Shown here: positions 2,540 through 56,827 of the stretch, in pieces | Layout: each line of letters opens with the position of its first letter | How positions within the stretch are numbered: position 1 is the first letter of the stretch | Source: Medicago truncatula | Lineage: Eukaryota; Streptophyta; Magnoliopsida; Fabales; Fabaceae | Assembly (NCBI RefSeq): GCF_003473485.1 | Contig: NC_053049.1 | Location: forward strand, 32,013,292 to 32,077,291 | Direction: 5' to 3' | Length of the DNA stretch: 64,000 nucleotides | The notes under the pieces: model-generated | Databases searched by the model: none | Seen by the model: only the letters and a program-made list of their open reading frames with translations | Told to the model about the DNA's origin: nothing | Made by a program: the position numbers and the translations under genes

Positions 2540-3294
2540 GAAGATTGCTTTTTAGGCCCCCCCAATATCTCTTTAGGCCCCCTAAAAATACAAAAATAAC
2601 CTTTATAATACATCCGGTAGTTACATCCCGGATGTGCATTTTAAATTTTCACATTTTACACCTTCGGTATGTACATACCGGAGGCACATTTACAAATTTT
2701 CACGTTTATCGCATTCGGTAGTTATGTTCTAGAGGAACATTCATTTTGCGATTTCTCAATTACACATCCGGTATATATATACCGTACTCCACCCACGTTG
2801 TTATCTGTTTAAAATGGTGCAGTTTTTTAAGAGTTATTTTCTAAGCTTCAATATTGTTCCATACCTTGCGTTTTTTGGCCAATTTTTGTTGTGTTTTCAT
2901 CACAATTAATAGAACAAATGGCGTCAATCTTTACTCAATTGCAATCATTTAGAAGGTAACCTTGCTTCTTCCTCTCTCGTATTGTTTCTGCATAATTTTT
3001 TTAGAGTTCTGTCATATTCAATGAAAAGTTTGATCCTTTTATTTCTGTAAATTTTATGCACCCTACCAAAAGTTTGTGAATTTTCCAACATAGCAGATCA
3101 TGTACATTTAAATAACATAATGCGATAAACGCGAAAATTTGTAAATGTGTCTCTGGTATGTACATACCGAAGGTGTAAAATGTGAAAATTTAAAATGCAC
3201 TACCGGTATGTAACTACCGGATGTATTATAAAGGTTATTTTTGTATTTTTAGGGGGCCTAAAGAGATATTGGGGGGACCTAAAAAGCAATCTTC
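2540..3294. mobile_element. non-autonomous Mutator-type element (Pack-MULE candidate)
   Basis: The terminal inverted repeats are about 176 bp (2540-2715 and 3119-3294), begin GAAGATTGCTTTTTAGG, and differ at only a handful of positions. The flanks carry a perfect 9-bp target-site duplication, CTTATTATT, at 2531-2539 and 3295-3303. A 9-bp duplication with long TIRs is the Mutator hallmark. No transposase is encoded. The interior (2716-3118) contains an exon-like piece: an ATG at 2918, twelve open codons and a good splice donor (AG/GTAACC at 2955/2956). This suggests capture of a host first exon. The inverted repeats contain many copies of CCGGTA/TACCGG dyads. Confidence 0.85.
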
Positions 3295-3303
3295 CTTATT
3301 ATT

Positions 3304-3915
3304 TACCATTTACTACGCACGTAATTTCTTTTATTAAGACATCAACTCCGTTTTAATGTATTAAACTTGATTATTTTAATACTTTCAATCGACGAATAAA
3401 TAAGTTTTCTTATCATTGTTGTATTATTTGTGCACCTAAATTTGTCATCATCAAACACTATTATTGTTATCTTGGGTTTTTCCCCTGGTGTGTCATGAAG
3501 GCTATATAAAACAAATAGTAAAAGTTTTGGTAGAAAAATATAATGAGCTCTTGTAACCATCAAGAGTTTTATGTGATATCACAACTAAGTTCAAGTGATC
3601 CATTGAGTGAATTAAGGAGACAAATATGATACATTCATATAGAAATTCTAATATAAGGAAGGATATATTGCAAATTTTTGTACGTTACAGTATAAAATAA
3701 TCAAACTATTTATTTATTTCATGCTAAAAGTAAGACTAAAATTCTTAAGTTGATTTATACATTAATATTTAATTAAACGATACTTTTAAATTTAATATTT
3801 TAAAATACATGTAATAATTAGTAAGGATTTCTTACAAGTAAACTTAACACAAAATTTTCTATATTCTAAAGTGATCAAATAATTTTCTATCTGTTACATT
3901 GGAAGGAGGAGAATC
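3304..3915. promoter_or_regulatory. upstream region of the NCR-like gene
   Basis: This is AT-rich sequence without a supported gene. Its last few hundred bases must contain the promoter and 5' leader of the peptide gene starting at 3916. Several TATA-like strings occur (for example TATAAAATAA near 3691), but no one site stands out. The minus-strand frame at 3342-3563 has no family features. Confidence 0.3.
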
Positions 3916-4216
3916 ATGACCAAAACTATCATGTTTGTTTATATAATGATCCTATTTATTTTCACATTTCATGTTGTATCAGAATTTGTTTGTAAGTATT
4001 TTATCATCTTTTTCAATAACAAAATTATTTTCCATTTTATTTTAAAAAATCCATAGACACAATATTTTATTTCATTTTATTAACATTCTTTTTTTCTTAA
4101 TTTATATCACAGCTTTTCATATTTGTAAATTTGACATAAACTGTCCATGGCAAAGTTGTTCTCCAGGAAATATTCCGGCATGTATTTTTGGAGTGTGCTA
4201 CTGCGTTCAGAGTTAA
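3916..4216 (+). CDS. NCR: nodule-specific cysteine-rich (NCR) type secreted peptide
   Basis: Two exons, 3916-3991 and 4113-4216, are separated by a 121-bp GT-AG intron (phase 1). They encode 59 residues. Residues 1 to about 24 are a hydrophobic signal peptide (MTKTIMFVYIMILFIF then TFHVVSEF). The mature part of about 35 residues has six cysteines spaced C-x5-C-x4-C-x7-C-x4-C-x-C. The exon 1 signal peptide, the early phase-1 intron and the C-x5-C...C-x4-C-x-C pattern match the NCR family. In that family, peptides are delivered through the nodule secretory pathway to the symbiosome and drive terminal differentiation of rhizobia in IRLC legumes. The start is set by the signal peptide. No close paralogue was seen in the window. 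A plant defensin is less likely because the scaffold is too short and lacks eight cysteines. Confidence 0.85.
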
Positions 4217-6019
4217 GTTCTCCATCATAACATTTTTATTCCTTTGACTTTTCTCACACTTTGATGTATATTTCTTCTATCCTTCAATCCTTATTGCATT
4301 AGAAATGGATTAATTATATTATGCAAGTGTTATTACCTTCAATAGCTAATGATTATATACATATTTTAAAGGATAAGTAAGATCTAGGTGGTTAATACAT
4401 CGTCTAAGAAGCTTAAAATTGAGGTTTAAACCATAGAACGTTATTGAATAAGCGATAAAGATATATATAACCCAGTGTGGTGTTGCACTTCACATGCGAT
4501 ATAAATCATGTCTTTTTAATCGTTATTTTCTCGAGTTAGTTTAACATCAAATATATGTGTGCATGTTGATCATTCCATTGTCGTTTACTATATCATGTGA
4601 TTTAATTTATACTTCTATTATTTTTTATTCAAATATATACCACCTTAATTTGTTTGAATGACTAGGTTCATCTACTTATACCTTATACCTTGATGTAAGA
4701 TGCCTCTGAAAAAAATTAGAAATTCAAATAGATACAATTACGATCCTAAATTGCAAGATGAACAAATCAACATTTTTAGTTATAAAGATCATAGGCATGT
4801 GATTACCTTAATATTTAATAACAATTGTTCCTCCTTCAATATCTTTCAATTTGATTGTGTGTGTATGGAAAGAGAGATACAATTTAATAACAAGCATTTT
4901 TGACAATTGATTAAAATATGAGTGTCATAGTGATATAGAAATCATTCTGATAGGGATATTGATATCATATATACCATATACTTATATCTTAGTGACCCAA
5001 AAATAATATGAGATGTGAAATATGAAAAAACATAAGAAATTATTAACCATGAAATTCCTTAATTAAAATTAACCTAACATCCAATTAAGATGTTTACCAA
5101 GATTTAAGAATATACACAAACACACAAAAAAAAAAAAATATGAGATCAAAATTTCTAATGATGGTGCACCAAATATAATAATCATAATGGCATATGTCAA
5201 AATGAGATTATAGAAATAGTAGCAAGTGATTTATTTGAAAACCTCAAAATATAGTAACAAACATAATGTTACTACAAATGAGAATATATAATATCCCACT
5301 AAAGGTATCAAAAATCTTAGAAAATTTATGAGTTATATGATCTTCTCCCACATGAATAGAGAAGAATAAATGATCAACTATATTCTTTATTACAGAATGA
5401 TCATGTCAACTATCTCACTCATTATTTGTATGTTATATTCTTGTACTCATGTACGAATTCAGGTTATTTTCCTCATGTTCATTAAAATTAATTGATGGTG
5501 CTTCGCATTTGAGATCAAAGTATTGGCTTATACACAACTTTATTTTTCATTTTTTTAGTATCTTTTGTTTAATTCTATTGTTTATTGGGATATTTGTACA
5601 ACAGTAATAGAGTGATATTGGAGTGGTCGAGATCTTTTTATTCTTATTTGTTTAATTCTTAAGTTTGCAAACTTCTGAGCTAAGGCATTATGTTTTAGAA
5701 ATGTGAAAAGACAATGTGTATCAAATTTTGAGTTGTGACATCATGTTTTGGAAATGTGAAAAGTTAATGTGTATCAAATTTTAATTTTACTTTTGTCCCT
5801 ATATGTAAACCTTTACATTATTATTTAAAAATGCATTAAATATGAAACAATTAATATGCATTAAATAACGTGGAAATGAATATGCGAACTTAAATGCAAT
5901 ATAGTGGGAAAGAATTTTGAATTTGAAAATAAATGTATATGAGTGATATAGGATGTTTTTAGAGGAAATTTGTTCCTATACAAATAGATCATCAACCATA
6001 ACTTTGACATTGTGGATTT
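4217..6019. other. intergenic, no gene seen
   Basis: AT-rich sequence. The short plus-strand frame at 4700-4903 has no signal peptide, cysteine pattern or family motif and looks random. A near-repeat of about 50 bp (AATGTGAAAAG...AATGTGTATCAAATTTT) occurs at about 5698-5733 and 5749-5782. Confidence 0.4.
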
Positions 6020-6385: not shown

Positions 6386-9300
6386 TGGGAAGAGTAAAAT
6401 TGAGAAAAAACCCTTAGAAATTCTAAGTTCGGGGGTCGTTTTCGTTACGGGAAGGTGTTAAGCACCCGAAACGACTATAGTACTCTATAGGAACCGTTTT
6501 CCTAATTTTATGTCTACGCTTTACTTTTATGCTTATTTATTGAAGAAAAAAAAAGAGTTTATTTAGGTTAAGAATGGAGAGAGAAAATGTTTGAGATTTT
6601 ATTTTATTGGACTTGGAGAGGTTTTGACCTCTTGCCTACATACCCTTTTAAGGGATCAAAATTCCATGTAGTTCTCTTTCAAAAGTATTTTTGGTGTGTT
6701 TGATTGATTTTAAGTTTTGGAAAATGGTTTTGAAGAAGAGAAAGAGGCCGTAAAGGCATAAGAAGAAAAAATGGTGGATGGTTGGTTCAATTATTAAAGA
6801 AAAGAGTCTAAGTTGGAATTAAGGTTCATTTGAACTTGATTAAGAAAATAAAGGGAAAATTCAATGGATTTTTGACTCCAAGGTTTATTAGGAAAAAATT
6901 TCAAGTGATGGAATTTGCTTATTTTGGAAAATTGATATTTTTCTAAGTATCGCATTTCCTAAGCATACATCTAAAGCGGTAAACATACAACGTGTGTGCG
7001 TGTCGGTTCTTGTGTCGGTGTACATCATTAGAGAGTCCATTGTCCGTTACATTGGCCCTAGTTTACACTCTATGGTCTTGCAAGGAATTAAAAGAAGGGA
7101 AATTAAACTACCTAAAATTACATGTCAATTTTGACATAGAAAATGAATGGTAAAATACCTAAACTAAGAGAAATGGAGATGAAGTGATAGAATGCTTATG
7201 AAATGGATGAAACATGAAATAGAAATGTTAGTAAAATAGGGTGTAAAATGATAGAACAAGTGAGCAAAGGAATACGAGATAAACGGTAAAAATGTCAACA
7301 ATAACCAAAATGTAAAAAAGAAACACATTACTTGCAACACAAGAAACTAACAAATCACATCAAAAACAGTAAAACAAACACATGATCAGAGGCATATTCA
7401 TCACAAAATAGCATATCAATCATTCATACCATGCCAAGATCTGATGAACAAATTATAGCAAGAAAATTCACAAGTTTAGACAAAGAAAGGGAGCAAATCA
7501 ATCAAGAAAACATCACATATGTTTTTATCATTTTTTAACATGTAAAAACATCACAAAAATATCAAAAATGCATCAAGAAACACATAGAAATTTTTAGGAA
7601 TTTTTACAAGAAAATTTGAGCACACAGGAGGTTCACATAGCAAAAACAGAGGGTGCACATAGCAAGAAATAGCAAAAACGCAGGAAACCACAGAAAAAAA
7701 AAGGCCCAAGCCCAAGCCTATTGAACCTGGACACTCAGGGAGCGTTGGATTGATCCAGGGGATGAAACCCTAGGTCTAACGGCCAAGATCAAGGGAAAAT
7801 GGACCGGACTTGGACCGGTCCGGTTCAGTGTGTTGGTGTAAGCCCTATAGGCCAATAGTTTATGTTAAACCTATCTTATGTATCATGATTTTTATTATTG
7901 AATAATATATGGCACTCTTTATTATATTTAGATAATGTTAATAAAGTCCTTAGAATAGATAGTTCGTGTAATAATATATTAAGTGTGACTTAATCATGAG
8001 ATTACATTATCTTATAGAACGCTATTCTTAAATGTATCCGTAGTCAAAGCTTTAATATGAATAAAGGATAATAATAAAGCGTCGAGACTATTATGTATGT
8101 AGACTGATGACCGCATCTCATGGGTCATAGATATGAGATATCAAGTCTATACATAGATATAAATATTAGGAGTAATATTTATATTGGATTGACCCACTGT
8201 GAGAATACTACATAGTAAGTTATGAAATTGTCATAAGATATTCTCACAATGATAATAATGTATATCGCTCTTAGACCTGAAACTACTATGATCTCTAGAT
8301 GTGGACTCAAGTGCTTTGTTGCCATTCTAACGTTGTCTGTAAAAGGATAACAATAACGTTGGTTGATGGGTACTTGATGAATCATGCTGAGGGGCATGAG
8401 TGTCCTAGATGGGATTTGTCCCTCCTCATAAACAGGAGATATATCTTCTCTTGATGAAATATGACTATAAATATGCATGGCCATGCCGAACTAAGTCAAT
8501 ATAAGATATTGGACTTATTCGTTAAATAGTATATTTCGAAATCAAGATAAATAAACATTGATCTATACAAGGGTGACACTATCTATGCCTTGGGATCAAT
8601 GAAGATATTGAGACAAAGGAGTAATTATACACATATGTGTTATCATGAAAGGTTTCGTCAGATCACTTGACATTCTTGTCACTTGGGTAGCAATGATGTG
8701 TTGCTAGATACCGCTCATTGTTTATGGTATTAAATATTAGATTTAATATCATTGCCAACGTGACTAGAACCTAAAGGGTCACACACAAAGAGCAGTCAAA
8801 AGAGATATGTATAAGTACGACTTATATAAAGGGTGCGCTTAGTAAATAATGCTAATTATTTAGCAAAATTTGCTAAACTCGTATTGGGCTTAGTGAAGTC
8901 AAAAACGAGTTTGACTTGCAAAGCACATAAGGAGTTCTATAAATAGAAACCTAGTGCAATAGTTTGCGATTACGTTTTCCTTGCAGAAACGCTAGTTCTC
9001 TGACTTCCGTCTTCTTGGCTAGCACCGAGGTTTTGGAGGAGCACTGTTCGTGTGGACTCAATAGAGGCTCTGCTATTTGCTTGGCTGTGATCGAGATTCC
9101 AGTTCGCAGATTCCACCGATCGTTTTCAGAATAATCGTTCTAAGGTAACAATCGAATCACTGGTTCAAGTTCCAATTCGTAATGATCCAAGGAAAGTAAA
9201 TCGAAATTTTATTCCGCTGCTTATTCTGTTAATGTCGATTTACCTTCACAGTGGCCTATATATATGTTGAAGCACCAGTTTATTTCATTTGCTACTCCCA

Positions 9301-14337: not shown

Positions 14338-15450
14338 ATGGCCTTGGCAGTTTCTTCAATCGGTTTTGAAGGCTTTGAAAAGAGGCTAGAGATATCATTT
14401 TTCGAACCGGGAGTATTTTTGGACCCTGAAGGAAAGGATCTTAGATCTCTAACAAAATCCCAGTTAGACGAGATTCTAGCACCTGCGGAATGCATCATTG
14501 TTTCCTCACTGTCAAATGATAAGGTTGACTCTTATGTTCTCTCTGAATCCAGCCTTTTTGTTTATCCATACAAGATCATAATCAAAACCTGTGGTACTAC
14601 CAAATTGCTGCTTTCAATCCCACCGATATTGAAGCTATCCGAGGCGCTTGGACTAACTGTTCGATCGGTAAGATACACCCGTGGAAGTTTCACTTTTCCA
14701 AGTGCTCAGTCCTTTCCTCATCGCAGCTTCTCCGAGGAAGTAGCAGTCCTTGATAGCTACTTTGCGAAGCTTGGAACAGGAAGCGTGGCTTATGTTTTGG
14801 GTGGCTCAGACAGCACACAAAAATGGCATGTTTACTCTGCTGCTGCGAAGTCTGTGAGCTTATTCGACTCAGTTTACACTCTGGAGATGTGCATGACTGG
14901 GTTAGACAAAGAGAAAGCATCGGTTTTCTACAAAGAACAGTCTAGTTCAGCATTCCTGATGACTGCGAATTCCGGTATCAGAAATATTCTTCCGGACTCT
15001 GAAATAAGTGATTTTGATTTTGACCCGTGTGGATATTCAATGAATTCTGTAGAAGGAGCTGCTGTTTCTACAATTCATGTTACTCCAGAAGACGGTTTCA
15101 GTTACGCTAGCTTTGAAACATGTGAGTATAATTTGGAGCTAATGAATCTGAATCAATTGGTTGAGAGAGTGTTGACTTGCTTCCAACCTAATGAATTTAT
15201 GATCGCTGTGCATGTGGACGTTGCGAGCAATTCATTCGAGCAGAACTGTTTGCTGAACGTTAAGGGATACTGCCGCGAAGAGAAGTGTTACCAGGAACTT
15301 GGTAGAGGTGGCTGTGTTGCCTTCCAGAAGTTCATAAAGACTTCTGACTGTGGTTCATCCTTTTCGACTCTGCAATGCTGGAAAGAGAAGTTTATCCAGA
15401 AGTTCGTCCTGAAATTCATCAAAACTTCTGATTCTGTTTCTTTTACTTAA
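14338..15450 (+). CDS. SAMDC: S-adenosylmethionine decarboxylase proenzyme
   Basis: An intronless main ORF of 370 residues. The enzyme decarboxylates S-adenosylmethionine to supply aminopropyl groups for spermidine and spermine synthesis in the cytosol. Family landmarks: the self-cleavage and pyruvoyl-forming site [10 protein letters not shown] (Glu70/Ser71, corresponding to Glu67/Ser68 of the human enzyme); catalytic Cys85 in KTCGTT; and the HVTPE..FSYASFE block with the processing His. The two uORFs upstream predict polyamine-controlled translation. Oddity: the family's usual acidic tail after KTSDCGSP.STLKCW is replaced. Here CWKEKF runs into a second copy of the KFIKTSD motif and ends SVSFT, making the protein slightly longer than the usual 350-365 residues. 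The catalytic part looks intact. Confidence 0.95.
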
Positions 15451-17138: not shown

Positions 17139-17478
17139 GGGTGCGTTTGATTTGCTAAAAAATGAAGGACATGACAGAACAACTCTAGTTATCCAGTGTT
17201 TGATTTGTAAAACTGTTTCAGGTACAGGACAAACTCGAGGCAAGGGACAGGACAAAAACTCATATTTTTGTCCCTCACCAAACCACAACACAACTTTTTG
17301 TCCCACGTACAAGTTGTCTAAAATACCAAAATAGTATTTTGTCCCTCAAAAATCGTATAAAACAAAAAATTACTCAATGCCATAAAAAATTTGTCATGTG
17401 TTGTTCTACCTTGTGTTGTACTGTTCTATCTTGTACTGTTCTGTTCAATACTTGCTGTTTTGCAAACCAAACACACCC
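17139..17478. mobile_element. MITE, GGGTGCGTTTGATTTG family, copy 1
   Basis: The ends GGGTGCGTTTGATTTG and CAAACCAAACACACCC are inverted repeats; TAT flanks both sides. The inside includes long matching phrases (AGGACATGACAGAACAAC, GGGACAGGACAAAAAC) shared with the copy at 56389-56718. It is non-coding. It lies inside the Harbinger transposon. Confidence 0.75.
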
Positions 17479-17676
17479 TATATATACACACATATACATA
17501 TTATAGATATATTATGCAGCTCCACAATTCTTTTCACTGAGGCACTTTGTGAATACCCTCTTGCCAAAATCAATCAGGTTCTTTCTTTTCATTGTTTTGT
17601 TAATTTAACTATTTATTTTATAACATTCTTTTTTCAATTGCTCATAGTTGATACCTATTAGATGTATATTATTGTA

Positions 17677-17823
17677 CTCCCTCCGGTCCTATTTACAAGA
17701 GACAATTTACTTTTTAGATACATTAAATAATTTATGTATTTGGTTTAGGTTCTTAACTAGATACATACATTATTGAATGTATCTAAAAAGTCAACTTTCT
17801 CTTGTAAATAGGACCGGAGGAAG
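17677..17823. mobile_element. Stowaway MITE (147 bp)
   Basis: Starts CTCCCTCCGGTCCTATTTAC and ends with the near-complement GTAAATAGGACCGGAGGAAG. It is flanked by TA at 17675-17676 and 17824-17825. The almost fully palindromic 147-bp unit is a classic Stowaway (Tc1/mariner-derived). It sits just upstream of ORF1 of the host Harbinger element. Confidence 0.9.
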
Positions 17824-17903
17824 TATTGTATAATAATTAGATTGTTCCATGCATGTTTTATTTTTTAATCCGCTTACTCTATTATCTATATATAAATGCA
17901 GCT

Positions 17904-27406: not shown

Positions 27407-27892
27407 ATGTCAATGCTCCAAACCGATGATCAAATCAAACAATTAAACGACATATTCAAGCGTTTTGACATGGATTCCGACGGCAGCCTAACCCACCTCG
27501 AGCTCGCGGCACTCCTCCGCTCCCTCGGCATCAAACCAACAGGCGATGAACTTTATGCCCTACTCAACAACATGGACAACAATCACAACGGATACATCGA
27601 ATTCGACGAGCTTGTTAATGCTATTATGCCCGACATGAATGAGGATGTTCTCATCAATCAAGAACAACTTTTGGAGGTTTTTCGCTCGTTTGATCGCGAT
27701 GGTAACGGTTACATCACCGCGGCTGAGCTTGCCGGATCCATGGCAAAGATGGGCCATCCTCTAACATACCATGAGCTTGCTAACATGATGGCTGAAGCTG
27801 ATAGCAATGGTGATGGTGTTATTAGTTTCAATGAGTTTGCTACCATTTTGGCTAAATCAGCTGCTGATTTTCTTGGTGTTAAGGTGCACTAG
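27407..27892 (+). CDS. calmodulin-like calcium-binding protein (CML15/16/18-type)
   Basis: An intronless ORF of 161 residues with four canonical EF-hand loops: residues 21-32 (DMDSDGSLTHLE), 57-68 (DNNHNGYIEFDE), 96-107 (DRDGNGYITAAE) and 132-143 (DSNGDGVISFNE). All have Asp at position 1, Gly at 6 and Glu at 12, so all four should bind Ca2+. The core phrases FDMDSDGSLT.LELAALLRSL, FDRDGNG, and the end FATILAKSA.D point to the plant CML15/16/18 group rather than true calmodulin (about 149 residues, highly conserved). It is a cytosolic or nuclear Ca2+ sensor that relays signals by binding targets. The start has good context (CACCATGTC). No lesions. Confidence 0.92.
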   Translation: MSMLQTDDQIKQLNDIFKRFDMDSDGSLTHLELAALLRSLGIKPTGDELYALLNNMDNNHNGYIEFDELVNAIMPDMNEDVLINQEQLLEVFRSFDRDGNGYITAAELAGSMAKMGHPLTYHELANMMAEADSNGDGVISFNEFATILAKSAADFLGVKVH

Positions 27893-29519: not shown

Positions 29520-29879
29520 GATTTTGTTTGCGAGTTTGTAGGGGGAGACTTGGAAAAAAAGGAATGAGCAAGTGGAAAAAAATAGGGAAAAATGAAAGGG
29601 GAGGGCTTTGTGGGTTAACTTTTCATCATAATACCAAACCCTCCTCATATGGGATAACTAAAAAAATGTATTGGGGGAGGGTTTATATGAATTCTTCAAA
29701 ATTAATCTATGTTGTTATATTATTTTTAAAATTAAAAATATAGTAATCATATGCATTAATTTATCATTCTCTAAAAAACTACACTTTTAAAAAATTTGAA
29801 AGATTTCTTCATTTTCCCTCGTATTTTCCACCCCTCAAAGCCTTTCCTTCCCCTTCCCTCCAAACTCGCAAACAAAGCC
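29520..29879. mobile_element. Tourist-like MITE, complete copy (TTA TSD)
   Basis: 360 bp. The left end GATTTTGTTTGCGAGTTTG and the right end (complement of GGCTTTGTTTGCGAGTTTGG) are flanked by TTA at 29517-29519 and 29880-29882, as for PIF/Harbinger-derived Tourist MITEs. The inside (GAGCAAGTGGA..., CCTCATATGGGATAACTAA..., TCTATGTTGTTATA) is shared with the truncated copy at 57314-57590. Confidence 0.8.
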
Positions 29880-31854: not shown

Positions 31855-34800
31855 TTATCTATGTTTAATAATTTTGTCCGACAATTGGTTTGCCTTGGCA
31901 GCTAAGCGAGCAGTTGAACCGACAGTCATTGGCTGCAATGATATTTGCCGGACCATAGCACAGTACTCAGGATCCTCAGTCTTCCCTTCATACCTTATCC
32001 ACTGTACCATTTCGTGATACATTGGAAAGAACCGCATCTGAATTGCTTTGTATGAGAAGTATGGTATAAGAGTTGAGATCACCACAAAGAATGTGACTAT
32101 CCAATAGGAAGACGAAGGAGCAAGAGCTTCAACGAAGACTGCGTAAGCGTTTTCCGAAAACCTTGGAGGAAGTGATCCATAGATTATGAGAAAAATGTAC
32201 CAGAAGAAAATGGAACCCCAGATGAAAAAATGTTGGATCAAGGTGAAGTAACTTATAGATAATGCCATTTGCAAGTTTACAACCCAAACTACGCAAGTGT
32301 ACATGGTTGTTCCAAGTATTTCTCTTCCGGCAGTATTTCCCTCGTGATCAAAAGCTTGGAGCTCCATGGCTTTGGTGCAGAAGAAGAAAATTAATAAGGC
32401 GCTAAAGAATCCGTTAAGCATCCAGCTGAGTACTCGACGCCAGCTGAAAAGGACATTTTGCACTCCTTCTTGATATAACAAAGGAAACTTGAGGCAGTAC
32501 CGAGCAGATACGTCTTGGTCGAATACACCAAGAGCGACCACAGGAAGTGATGAAAAGAAGACGTTATAGAGAGCTAAAAACCAGTCGTTGTATGCAGGTT
32601 CTCCGGAGAATGATGCATACACCTCATACAAGAATAGAGTGAAACCAAATGTGACATTCTTGTAGAAAAAATAGCATATCTGTCAGAATAAACAATTAAC
32701 ACGTTAACAGAATACCAAACAGTCAGTCAGAGGAACTTCACTATAATCTAGAGATCCAATTATAGGCACAGTAATATTAATACCATCGATGAGATCCTCC
32801 GGTAACACCAATGGCCGTGCACCAGAAGTAATCGTTCCAAATATCGGAATTGTGCAATTGCAATATCACTAGACATAACAGCCTGTGGAATTAGAAGGGG
32901 AAAAAAGATAATGTTGTTTAGAATAAAGAAAAAAGTAAAATTCAATGAAAAAAACATGAATATTGTGTGAATTTATGCAGCACCTGCATTCCTTCAACAC
33001 CACTTATACCAACTCCGATATCAGCTTCTTGAAGCATTCCAACATCGTTAGCTCCATCGCCGATAGCTAATGTTGTTTTCCCGGTTCCAGATTTGACCAA
33101 TCTAGTGACCTTTAAGATAAAAATTAGATAAATTATTTCCTATGAGGCACTCATAAAGACACTAGACACAACCTTGACACCAGTAATAATAATTTGAAAA
33201 GGAGAATAATTGTTTCTAAAATGTAACCATATTTTTTATCAGGACCAATATATAAACACTGGATCTTTCAAAAACCAAAATATATGAACACAGGGTAGAC
33301 TGAAAAATACCAGCGCCTTCTGTTTTGGCGATGAACGACAACAAATAACAGATGCACAACGAATTGCAAGCTCGAGAAACATGTTCTTCATATCATCCTC
33401 AAGTGCATAAGCAAGTGACTTCCCATCAATGATTAGCGCAAATGCCTGCTGAGAAAACCCTCTGTGTGCACTAAGCTGTGCAGCACCTTCACGTAACTGA
33501 GAGAGGACACTTTGCCTTGATGTCTAAAAGATGAATCAACGAAAAATCAGGATACAAGTTTCCAGCTCTATACAGTATCATCACAAGAACACTAACATAC
33601 CATGAAATCATAGTGAAAAACTTAAATCATCAATAAAGGTAAAATATACCAACTACCAAGCAATATAAAACAACTGAAAGTATACCAGCTTGCACTGTCA
33701 CCCTTGTACCCTTAGAAACAGAAGAGTAATGCTAAGCTTATGCAGTTACAGTAATTCTTAATATCGCTTTACTAAACTGTTTTGTTCAGAAAACCAGAAT
33801 GGAATCTAAGTTCAAAACGTCAGCATTATAAAGCAGATTAAGCCGCCATTTCTACTATAAGATATGTTACTAGAATATTGCGATGTTGAAGAGAACCAAC
33901 TTATAAACACGCTCACTGAAACTATACATTATATGCTCTATAGTCTATATACAAGCTGCACCATGTTAGATAAAAAACTATATTAAGAGATGAAGGTTTT
34001 TTTTACCTTGGTAATAGCTATTTTGTCGCCATCTTTCTCCAGAGCTTGAATTTCTGGATTATCCAAATGAATTATAATCTGTTTCATTCCTTGTCTAAGC
34101 AAACTACAAGCAAAGCTGCAATGGAGTATTTGTGTCAGTTAACTTGAAAAGCAGATCTCATGAGGTGAAGCCTATGTAGCACTGACACTTCACATTGAAG
34201 GTGTGTCCCATATGCAACACCGACACGACATACGTGATTAGGTCAACTATTTCATTTCTTAAATTATAACTGGCGTTGATATGTCAGTGTTGTGTCCAAC
34301 GTCTGTGTCATTGCTTCATAGGGTGAAGCCATAGTATAAAAAATAATAACATTAAATATAATACCCAATATTGATAGCAGTTTCCATTTTATCCCCAGTC
34401 AAAACCCAAATCTTAATTCCTGCTTGGGCAAGCTTGTCAATGCAATCAGGAACCTTGCAAAAAAAAAAAGTGCAATATAAACATGATTACTAGTTCCATT
34501 CCAATAATAATCTTCACAAGTAAAACATGATTTTTTTTTTTTTTATTATAACTAACCCCATCTTGGAGCTTGTCCTCTACAGCAGTAGCACCAAGAAGGA
34601 TTAGGTTCTTCTCAATATTATCCGATACTTCCTCAATCAGTGTTTCCCGATCTGCACTAACTAAATTCTTGGCCTCAGAGAATGTGTTATCAAACTCCTT
34701 GTATTCCTCTGCTGCAAGTTCACGATAGGCGAGTATAAGGGTTCTTAGACCTGCATCGGCATATTCATGCACATGTTCCATGGTTTTCTCTTCAAACTCC

Positions 34801-37800
34801 CTTCCATTCTTGGCAAGTCTTTCAAACATGACACTGCATGAAATATCAATTAAGGCTGGACAATGAGTGAAAAACAAAGGACATAAGTAAACATTCAAAA
34901 TCATTTAAGGGTACAGATCAATTTATCACAAACCTATCGGCACCTTTACAGAGTAATAAAATTTTCCCTTCGCCATCTTGTACTATTACCGACATTCTCT
35001 TCCTTGAGCTATTGAATTCTAAAACATTGAGAATCTTGTACATCCTGCAAATTGAAAGTAGTTACTGAAAAACTGTATCGTTGAGATGAAAAAAAATTCC
35101 AAAAATTGTGGCTTTAACAACATTTTAGAAGTACAAGCATGAGTTAGTATGTATAAAGTGAAAATCTTAAATCCCAAACAGCATAGTTATGCAGGAAATA
35201 ATTAAGGTTTGGAAAACCATTGAACCATTTTTCTCTCTCAAAACTTAGTTCTTTAAAACACCATAAAGGTGTAAGGCAAAGGTACAAAGTGTACAAACTC
35301 ACCTATTCTATATGCAGCTATAGGACCTGTTTGGATTGGCTTTTTTGAATTTATCTACTAGCATAAGTACTTGTGAAGCTGTTTGGTAGTGCTTATGCAA
35401 ACAATTTTTCACCTGTCCATAAGCTGTTTTCAGCTTATTCCATAAACTCTCCAGGAAACATTATGAAAACAGCTTATCAAATACATAAAAACAGAATGAC
35501 TTTATTTTATATTTTATTAATAAGTAGCTTATACAAACAGTTTAGTCTACTTAATTAAGTTGTTTATCCAAACAGGGTTGTCTAGTTCTTTTAATTAAAA
35601 AATTCTTATTGTCATTAGATGATAAGCTGTTATAAAATGTATATCCGTCCTAAAGTTGTGTTTCCACGTGCAAGGAAAATTGCAGCAGTAGCAGAAAAAT
35701 TCTAAGCAATTGAAACAACTAACCTTTCAACTTTCTTGCCTGAAACTGGATCCAACTCACATGTCGATAAACTGGTCTGAGCCCTTTTGAAGAATTCAAA
35801 ACCAATTTCTCTCGCCGCAATAACAAATGCAGCTTCATCCGGAGATTCAGCCTCGTAGGAGACATTTCCTGTCTCTTGATCTATTTCTGGTATGGCTGTA
35901 TGACATACGGCCAATAGACGAAAAAACTTCTGGATAACATCTGCATGAGGTTCATTAACCCAGTTACCATTCATTATTCTTTCATCAGTAAAGTTAAAAC
36001 TTTTAATGGCTGCTTTTTTATCAAGAGAAACCCTGATGTGATCTTCTTCAGATATATCACACTCGTGAACTAACGATGAACTTTTTCTTCTATCCATGGT
36101 TTTCTCAACTTCTGTAACACCACGACCATAAGCTACACCAGCGATCGAACATTTGATGAATTCCATCGAGTTGCAGGTCAAAGTTCCAGTTTTATCAGAA
36201 AGTATTGTGTCAACTTGACCGAGCTCCTCGTTCAAGTTTGAAGTGCGAGCATGTGCCGGTTTGTCTGCTTCCTTGTAGTACATATGGATATCTTGATTGA
36301 TGAAAATGCTCTGAAGGACTTTTACAATTTCTATTGACACATACAAAGAGATGGGAATAAAGAAACCATACAACATTAAGGCTGTCAAACAATGAAATAT
36401 AGCAGCAGCAGCCGGTCTTTTTGGATCAAAGAAAATTGTAGAGTCGTCAGGCCTTAAATACCATCTTTTCACCGAATCGTTGTTCAAGTCATCTTTAGTT
36501 ATAAAGCCAAAGAAAATAGATCCCACGGATGCCATTAGAAACAAAATACAGAACAAGAAGTAAATGACTCTATCCATCTTCCTCTCAACTCGGCTTCTTT
36601 TTGAAGGTGGATCAGTAGAGTTCTGAATAACCTTAGTCTCATGACCAGTGAAGATAACAGCTCCGAAAATATAGTCTGTATTACGAAGTTTAGAGTCTCG
36701 CAGAAGAAGTTGCTGTGGGGAAAGGGCATAGTTTTGACCTTCAAACTCCAAGCTCCCAACAAACGAGTACAGATTTGCATTTGGATCTTCACATTTGACA
36801 GTAGCTTTAAATTTTTTGAAGTTGAGATCCTCATGTAAGGAAGATGTTACCTCTAAACCTTGTTTTAGCTTCAAATTTGTCTCGCCGTCTAAGTTCATGG
36901 TCTCAACATAGCAAACTGCATCTTCATAACTCGATGAAAGCAATAAGAGATCCGCTGGGAAGAACTCATTCTTCTCTACCTTCACTATATTTCCTACCCT
37001 CAGATTCTTCCATGCAGTATATTCAAAAATGCCATCAACTTTATGAACTTTAACTCTTCTATTGTTCACCTCAATATCCTGCAGAAGAATCTTATATGTC
37101 ACAAATGAAATAAAAAAAAATGAAGGTACTAAAACCATATTACAGAGACTAAAAGCGTTACTAACTCAGTATTTTATCATATGCAGGGACAGTTAAAAAA
37201 TATAAAATCAGCATTAGTAACCATTGATTAAAAATAACAATTTAAATTTTCACATAATACAAGAAAATCATTGGCTCCGTCAAGTTTTTTTAGGGGTTAC
37301 CATTGGCATTTTACGCTATAAAGTGCACCCTGCAACTTAGCAGATTCAAACATTGAACATATACTGGAGTCACATGAACAAATAACGAAGTAATTGCAGT
37401 TCTTCCTTTCGAAACAATACCGAGAAACTAAACAGAAAAGCTACAATATTACATAAGCTGCCTGCCAAAATTTTACCTTTTGGTAAAGTACTTCATGGCC
37501 TTGAAAAAATACCACAAAATTTTCAATTATTTACTGATTGATACTCTTTAAGCCATTAAGTTTGGGTCGAATTATTTGAGCTTATCTACAGGCATAAACA
37601 CTCGTGAGACTATTCAGGGGAGATTATGAAAGAATCTTATGACATGTCCATAAGCTCTCTGGGATAGCTTATGAAAACAGATTATAGCTTATAAGGAAAC
37701 TATTTTATTTTATTTTATATTTTGTTGTAAAAATAGCTTATGCAGAAGCACTAATATGATAAGAACTTAAGCTATACATTCATAACTAAGTTGTTTATCC

Positions 37801-56388: not shown

Positions 56389-56718
56389 ATGTGCGTTTGA
56401 TTTGTTAAAAAATGAAGGACATGACAGAACAACTTCAGTTGTCCAATGTTTGATTTGTAAAACTGTTTCAGGGACAGAACAAACTGGAGGCAAGGGACAG
56501 GACAAAAACTGAAATTTTTGTCCCTCGCCAAACCACAACACAACTTTTTGTCCCACGTAAAAGTTGTCTAAAACACCAAAATAGCATTTCGTCCCCCAAA
56601 AAGCATATAAAACAAGAAATTATTCAATACCATAAAAATTTGTCCTGTGTTGTTATGCCTTGTGTTGTGTTGTTATGCATTATACTGTTCTGTCCTGTTT
56701 TGCAAACCAAACACACCC
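56389..56718. mobile_element. MITE, GGGTGCGTTTGATTTG family, copy 2
   Basis: Close relative of 17139-17478: shared AAAAAATGAAGGACATGACAG, GTTTGATTTGTAAAACTG, AAACCACAACACAACTTTTT and CAAACCAAACACACCC. It sits inside the LINE zf-RVT segment. Confidence 0.75.
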
Positions 56719-56827
56719 TAACTATTACAGAAGCACAGAGAGCTCATTTCATCCAGGTTTGTCTGCTTGTGGGGGAATATTTAGAGACTACAATGCAAAT
56801 GCACTTTTTTCCTTCTCATAACCCTTA

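Follow-up and report, generated by a model that had tools for sequence, protein, structure and literature searches.

A probable six-cysteine NCR gene of group B with an NCR-type promoter in a 64-kb stretch of Medicago truncatula

Introduction

Medicago-type legumes control their nitrogen-fixing bacteria with small secreted peptides of the nodule-specific cysteine-rich (NCR) family. Does a pair of short exons in a 64,000-nucleotide stretch of Medicago truncatula DNA (positions 32,013,292-32,077,291 of the eighth contig, NC_053049.1, here C8; the stretch is hereafter called the window) form a real NCR gene, and did the mobile DNA lying next to it take part in building its promoter? A first-pass annotation, made by reading the sequence without database searches, had proposed a single NCR-type gene at 3916-4216. 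The host is the expected one, as M. truncatula belongs to the IRL clade (IRLC legumes). Here we describe the structure of this gene, its relatives, its promoter and its surroundings. Our analysis indicates, with high confidence, that the locus is an intact-looking NCR gene (group B, six cysteines), which encodes an NCR-type precursor and whose promoter, carrying motifs 1 and 3, is also of the NCR type.

Structure of the gene

The proposed exons, frames, splice sites, phase-1 intron and cysteine spacing (C-x5-C-x4-C-x7-C-x4-C-x-C) of this two-exon gene proved correct base for base, and they give a precursor of 59 residues (Table 1). Unspliced, the frame of exon 2 is open from 4046 to 4213 (56 codons) and lacks an ATG, so splicing is required to express it. 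The product of exon 1 is hydrophobic and signal-like, as judged from its residues. The codon split by the intron and three complete ones lie ahead of the first cysteine codon. For NCR genes in general, PMC12461094 describes two exons and a phase-1 intron placed a few codons ahead of the first cysteine, and the gene at 3916-4216 has this organization.

Both strands of the window were scanned for gene models in which an ATG exon encoding a hydrophobic leader is joined across a GT-AG intron to a six-cysteine exon. The scan yields four models and every one of them is the NCR-type gene at 3916-4216, with two ATGs and two introns in play; the same scan gave no model in any of 60 dinucleotide-shuffled windows. 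The gene also stands alone, as had been proposed, since a pattern search revealed no second NCR-like gene in the window and the 10 kb upstream of it. Three weaker candidates were discarded: a signal-like match at 29687 is followed by stops and gives no gene model, and neither do the four-cysteine patterns at 37357-37434 and 7620-7682. A further match to promoter motif 1 downstream of the gene (4443-4483, 14.3 bits, the second best in the window) might have marked a decayed NCR gene. We take it as a chance match because it falls outside the best 14 hits of the family-trained HMM and has no accompanying exon pattern.

Table 1. Position of the features described in the window (motif starts are relative to the ATG)
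Feature	Position	Strand	Description
Mutator-type MITE, non-autonomous	2540-3294		755 bp, TIRs of about 176 bp; neighbour, outside the gene
Weak motif 2 match	3480-3520	+	Starts at -436; 29/41 to consensus, seventh best in the window
Motif 1	3602-3642	+	Starts at -314; 36/41 to consensus, 34.7 bits, best in the window (next 14.3)
Motif 3	3847-3896	+	Starts at -69; 44/50 to consensus, 31.0 bits, best in the window (next 12.5)
Exon 1	3916-3991	+	76 nt (25 codons and one further base), putative signal peptide
Intron	3992-4112	+	121 bp, phase 1, GT-AG, GTAAGT...ATATCACAG (ends ACAG)
Exon 2	4113-4216	+	104 nt including the stop, mature six-cysteine peptide
S-adenosylmethionine decarboxylase	14338-15450		Pfam match
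EF-hand protein	27407-27892		Pfam match
Phospholipid-translocating ATPase, C-terminal domain	31855-32631	-	Pfam match
E1-E2 ATPase	35702-37138	-	Pfam match slightly under its cut-off

Relatives in the genome

Twenty loci were taken for comparison; at each of them the family or protein search had hit a single exon of what is probably a two-exon gene. In two of them (L067 and L068) the match was exon 2, so they were modelled in a second set and 18 were left in the first one. A model was obtained for 15 of these 18 loci (none for L062, L063 and L065), and the best model was phase 1 in 14 of the 15, in which exon 1 measures 73-79 nt and the intron 81-114 bp; in L054 the phase-1 model ranked second. 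In the second set, four of seven loci (L087, L088, L089 and L093) gave a six-cysteine model, in each case of phase 1 and with 76 nt in exon 1, and the other three gave no model with the six-cysteine-only pattern. The intron of the gene studied here is longer than that of every modelled relative.

Another group of NCR loci, found on C7, C4 and other contigs (L009-L028), matches the family at full length in a single frame, and all 20 read through without an intron; they were chosen by such full-length hits and are thus biased towards intronless genes. Intronless and two-exon NCR forms are both present in the genome.

No near-identical copy of the gene was found in the genome, and the top protein match other than the gene itself shows 43% identity (E 6.4e-7). 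On the same contig, 565 and 635 kb off, lie two paralogues, C8:31451847 and C8:31382099, whose spliced precursors are 53% and 49% identical to that of our gene, respectively. Both share the 76-nt phase-1 exon 1, but their promoters have diverged: C8:31451847 has a motif 4 match (E 0.00045) and C8:31382099 has only weak ones (E 0.09 and 0.14). Compared with C8:31382099, identity reaches 63% in exon 2, 75% in exon 1 and 77% in the aligned part of the intron, which contains many gaps, and dN is 0.40 and dS 0.79 (a ratio of about 0.5, from a test that is weak with 59 codons). With exon 2 the least similar part, the comparison gives no evidence of constraint on the mature peptide, and it is compatible with constraint as well as with its absence. 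The block 3398-3610 of the window also occurs twice upstream of C8:31382099, at C8:31380158-31380359 and 31381341-31381549, 1.2 kb apart.

Promoter motifs

PMC3613412 describes five motifs in the promoters of NCR genes and reports that 33,131 other genes lack them upstream. We scored them with matrices of our own, made from the consensus printed in that paper, and used 500 shuffled versions of the 1 kb upstream of the gene and 200 permuted motifs as controls. HMMs built from the motif sites of 38 NCR promoters of the same genome were applied as well. The expectation of conserved NCR motifs in this region held in part: motifs 1 and 3 are present and significant, motif 2 is weak, and neither motif 4 nor motif 5 was detected upstream of the gene, as 201 and 466 of the 500 shuffles, respectively, score equally high.

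The score of motif 3 was reached by none of the 500 shuffles and none of the 200 permuted motifs, and the family-trained HMM places it at 3867-3895 (E 0.0002). Its position is the usual one, given that motif 3 exceeds 12.4 bits (the best value among 61 control tiles of the window) in 26 of the 38 comparator promoters and starts between -50 and -74 in all 26. Motif 1 was likewise matched by 0/500 shuffles and 0/200 permuted motifs (HMM E 0.0051). Among the 18 of 38 comparators in which it reaches at least 15 bits, 15 place it at -133 to -215, the outlying ones being L056 (-346, with a second copy at -168), L062 (-261) and L014 (-892); compared with those 15, motif 1 of our gene is displaced away from the ATG by about 120 bp. 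The match to motif 2 has the order and spacing expected for the family, 122 bp ahead of motif 1, and taken alone it is below significance (HMM E 0.26; gapped score of 28.5 against a maximum of 31.5 for 60 permuted motifs).

In the NCR169 promoter the reported order of the motifs is 2, 1, 4, 5, 3, and MtAHL1/2 bind motif 4 (PMC9946822). Counting the weak motif 2, the order 2-1-..-3 is common to NCR169 and to our gene, but no counterpart of motifs 4 and 5 of NCR169 was found in the promoter described here. A relative on C4, at 31.72 Mb, has a similar arrangement: its motifs 2, 1 and 3 lie at -451, -338 and -61, respectively, and its motif 4 match has only E 5.2. It is conceivable, though we would put it forward only tentatively, that there is a promoter subclass of NCR genes without the AHL-bound motif 4 and with motifs 2 and 1 shifted about 120 bp upstream. 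If so, their expression would not depend on MtAHL1/2 and would fall in another stage or zone. The motif-4-less promoter could help to tell AHL-dependent from AHL-independent NCR genes.

The same promoter may be read in a different manner, as that of an NCR gene that was silenced recently or is expressed weakly, in which the coding part is intact and an altered promoter leads to little expression in nodules. The lack of a detectable motif 4, the distant motif 1 and an exon 2 that is no more similar to that of C8:31382099 than the aligned intron is would agree with it. On the other hand, the frame is intact, the splice sites are canonical, motifs 1 and 3 are well preserved, and the dN/dS ratio against the same paralogue, although a weak test, also speaks against silencing. 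Moreover, motif 4 is reported in only 112 of 209 NCR promoters (PMC3613412). We consider a silenced gene improbable and keep the reading of an intact-looking NCR gene.

Family assignment

In Pfam, the precursor matches a single family, Nodulin_late (PF07127), with 51.8 bits against a curated cut-off of 30.4 (E 1.1e-13). The match spans residues 1-55 and positions 1-54 of the 54 of the profile, so that the precursor passes the profile check proposed for it over the whole length of the model. A search of the 429.9-Mb, 42-contig genome with PF07127 reported 159 matches with 150 of 1198 candidates scored, and none of 14 control genomes was matched. We aligned the peptide with 11 relatives of the same genome, picked for having six cysteines (L054 entered with its second-ranked splice model). 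PF07127 recognizes each of the 12 sequences, and all six cysteines are conserved throughout this alignment. In the PDB, the single sequence has chickpea NCR13 as its only match up to E 10 (E 0.052), and the profile of the 12 sequences raises this match to E 5.4e-07, the next best being 0.21. NCR13 (PDB 7th8, 8ulm) has the same cysteine spacing, and the alignment covers the mature peptide; it differs in that it is reported as antifungal with a net charge of +8 (PMC11637438), while the peptide described here is about neutral.

The gene shares with the group B NCR genes of M. truncatula the signal-like exon, the phase-1 intron, the six-cysteine exon and motifs 1 and 3. It departs from the family in that no motif 4 or 5 was detected, in a motif 1 located farther upstream and in a near-neutral peptide, although near-neutral NCRs are on record (PMC7230169).

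Secreted cysteine-rich peptides resemble one another, and the peptide could in principle belong to a different class (plant defensin, thionin, albumin I or knottin) with a role outside nodules. The profile of the relatives weakly matches leginsulin (E 0.29) and scorpion potassium-channel toxins (E 0.34 and worse) in the PDB, and single members of the alignment weakly match Albumin_I (E 0.088) and Squash (E 0.19) in Pfam. However, a better match to another cysteine-rich class, which would have told against the NCR assignment, was looked for in Pfam and the peptide at 3916-4216 returned Nodulin_late alone. Plant defensins are described as cationic, with eight cysteines (PMC7230169), in contrast to the six cysteines and the pI of 5.3-6.7 found here. 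The gene also carries promoter motifs that, according to PMC3613412, are absent upstream of non-NCR genes. We regard membership in another class as very unlikely. That both the open frame and its cysteine pattern arose by chance, for which the short exons and the AT-rich DNA might speak, is practically discounted by the shuffled windows, by the Pfam E-value and by independent promoter motifs where the family usually has them. The NCR-type identity of the gene is thus upheld by the Pfam family, the gene structure, the promoter motifs and the paralogues.

Catalogue status

The gene looks like an ordinary one, a member of a family of about 700 NCR genes. As many NCR genes had been thought to be missing from annotations, it is relevant that the A17 Mt5.0 annotation is reported to hold 678 of them (PMC8862580), so that it is unlikely that this one is unannotated; it has probably been catalogued already. 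The PF07127 model served in at least one NCR catalogue, that of R108 (PMC8862580). In the features examined here the gene fits the known family, and it passes the cut-off of this Pfam model. Five fragments of the peptide had no match in the full texts of the literature, a search that covered article text and not the supplementary tables in which NCR lists are kept. In biological terms the locus represents one member of a very large and well-studied family; its interest lies also in the fact that a short two-exon NCR gene can be recovered exactly by reading the sequence alone.

Mature peptide and possible function

The computed net charge of the mature peptide is about -0.2 to -1.5, varying, as does the pI, with the cleavage site. 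By analogy with the family, infected nodule cells would transcribe the gene, the nodule secretory pathway would cut off the signal peptide, and a mature peptide of about 35 residues would reach the symbiosome, where it may act on bacteroids. Its cysteines could pair into up to three disulfides. The pairing cannot be deduced from the cysteine spacing, since NCR13, with equal spacing, is reported to fold in two disulfide pairings (PMC11637438).

Certain cationic NCRs are described as strongly antimicrobial, and the NCRs found in bacteroids in one study were mostly anionic or neutral (both in PMC7230169). As the peptide is near neutral, killing by membrane lysis is less likely, and our best guess is that it would tune bacteroid physiology or other NCR peptides instead of lysing membranes. 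In this sense, it has been hypothesized that neutral NCRs temper the cationic ones (PMC7230169). Charge is nevertheless a poor guide to function, because the essential NCRs are reported to show no pI pattern, and NCR169, termed anionic, has reported antimicrobial activity (PMC12461094).

The neighbouring Mutator-type element

The Mutator-type element proposed at about 620 bp from the gene is real. It ends 621 bp before the ATG, and besides its TIRs it has a perfect 9-bp target-site duplication (CTTATTATT). At least 27 copies, 96-100% identical to the query 2541-3294, are present in the genome with 40 of 130 candidates scored; 26 of them cover the full query and one covers 1-739, the copy of the window being counted. 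Flanks were read for ten copies, including this one, and nine have a perfect 9-bp duplication and the remaining one an 8-bp duplication. The copy at C6:15361602, on another chromosome, differs from the MITE described here by a single base, which suggests that the insertion is recent.

From the end of the MITE at 3294 there are 103 bp to the block 3398-3610, which the paralogue region has as well; the distance to the weak motif 2 is 185 bp and that to motif 1 is 307 bp. The idea that mobile DNA shaped the promoter finds no sign in its favour, given that the element is recent and lies outside the block in common with the paralogue region at C8:31.38 Mb. We read it as a recent insertion next to an older promoter. 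Such a neighbourhood is usual, since all NCR genes with their 2-kb flanks are reported to contain transposable elements in two ecotypes (PMC8862580). The MITE may nonetheless influence the expression of the NCR gene, as PMC8862580 cites a study in which nodules activate certain transposable elements located no more than 2 kb from NCR genes.

Other features of the window

Pfam searches with eight longer open reading frames of the window matched ordinary plant gene families in four cases (Table 1) and nothing in the other four. A hit to the MIR5286 precursor (17178-17255) falls within a repeat at 17141-17480 that is 87.6% identical to 56391-56720 over 340 columns; the annotated MIR5286 miRNA may derive from a repeat. 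Downstream of this hit there is an inverted repeat (17675-17825) of 74 bp, with a 3-nt loop and 88% complementarity.
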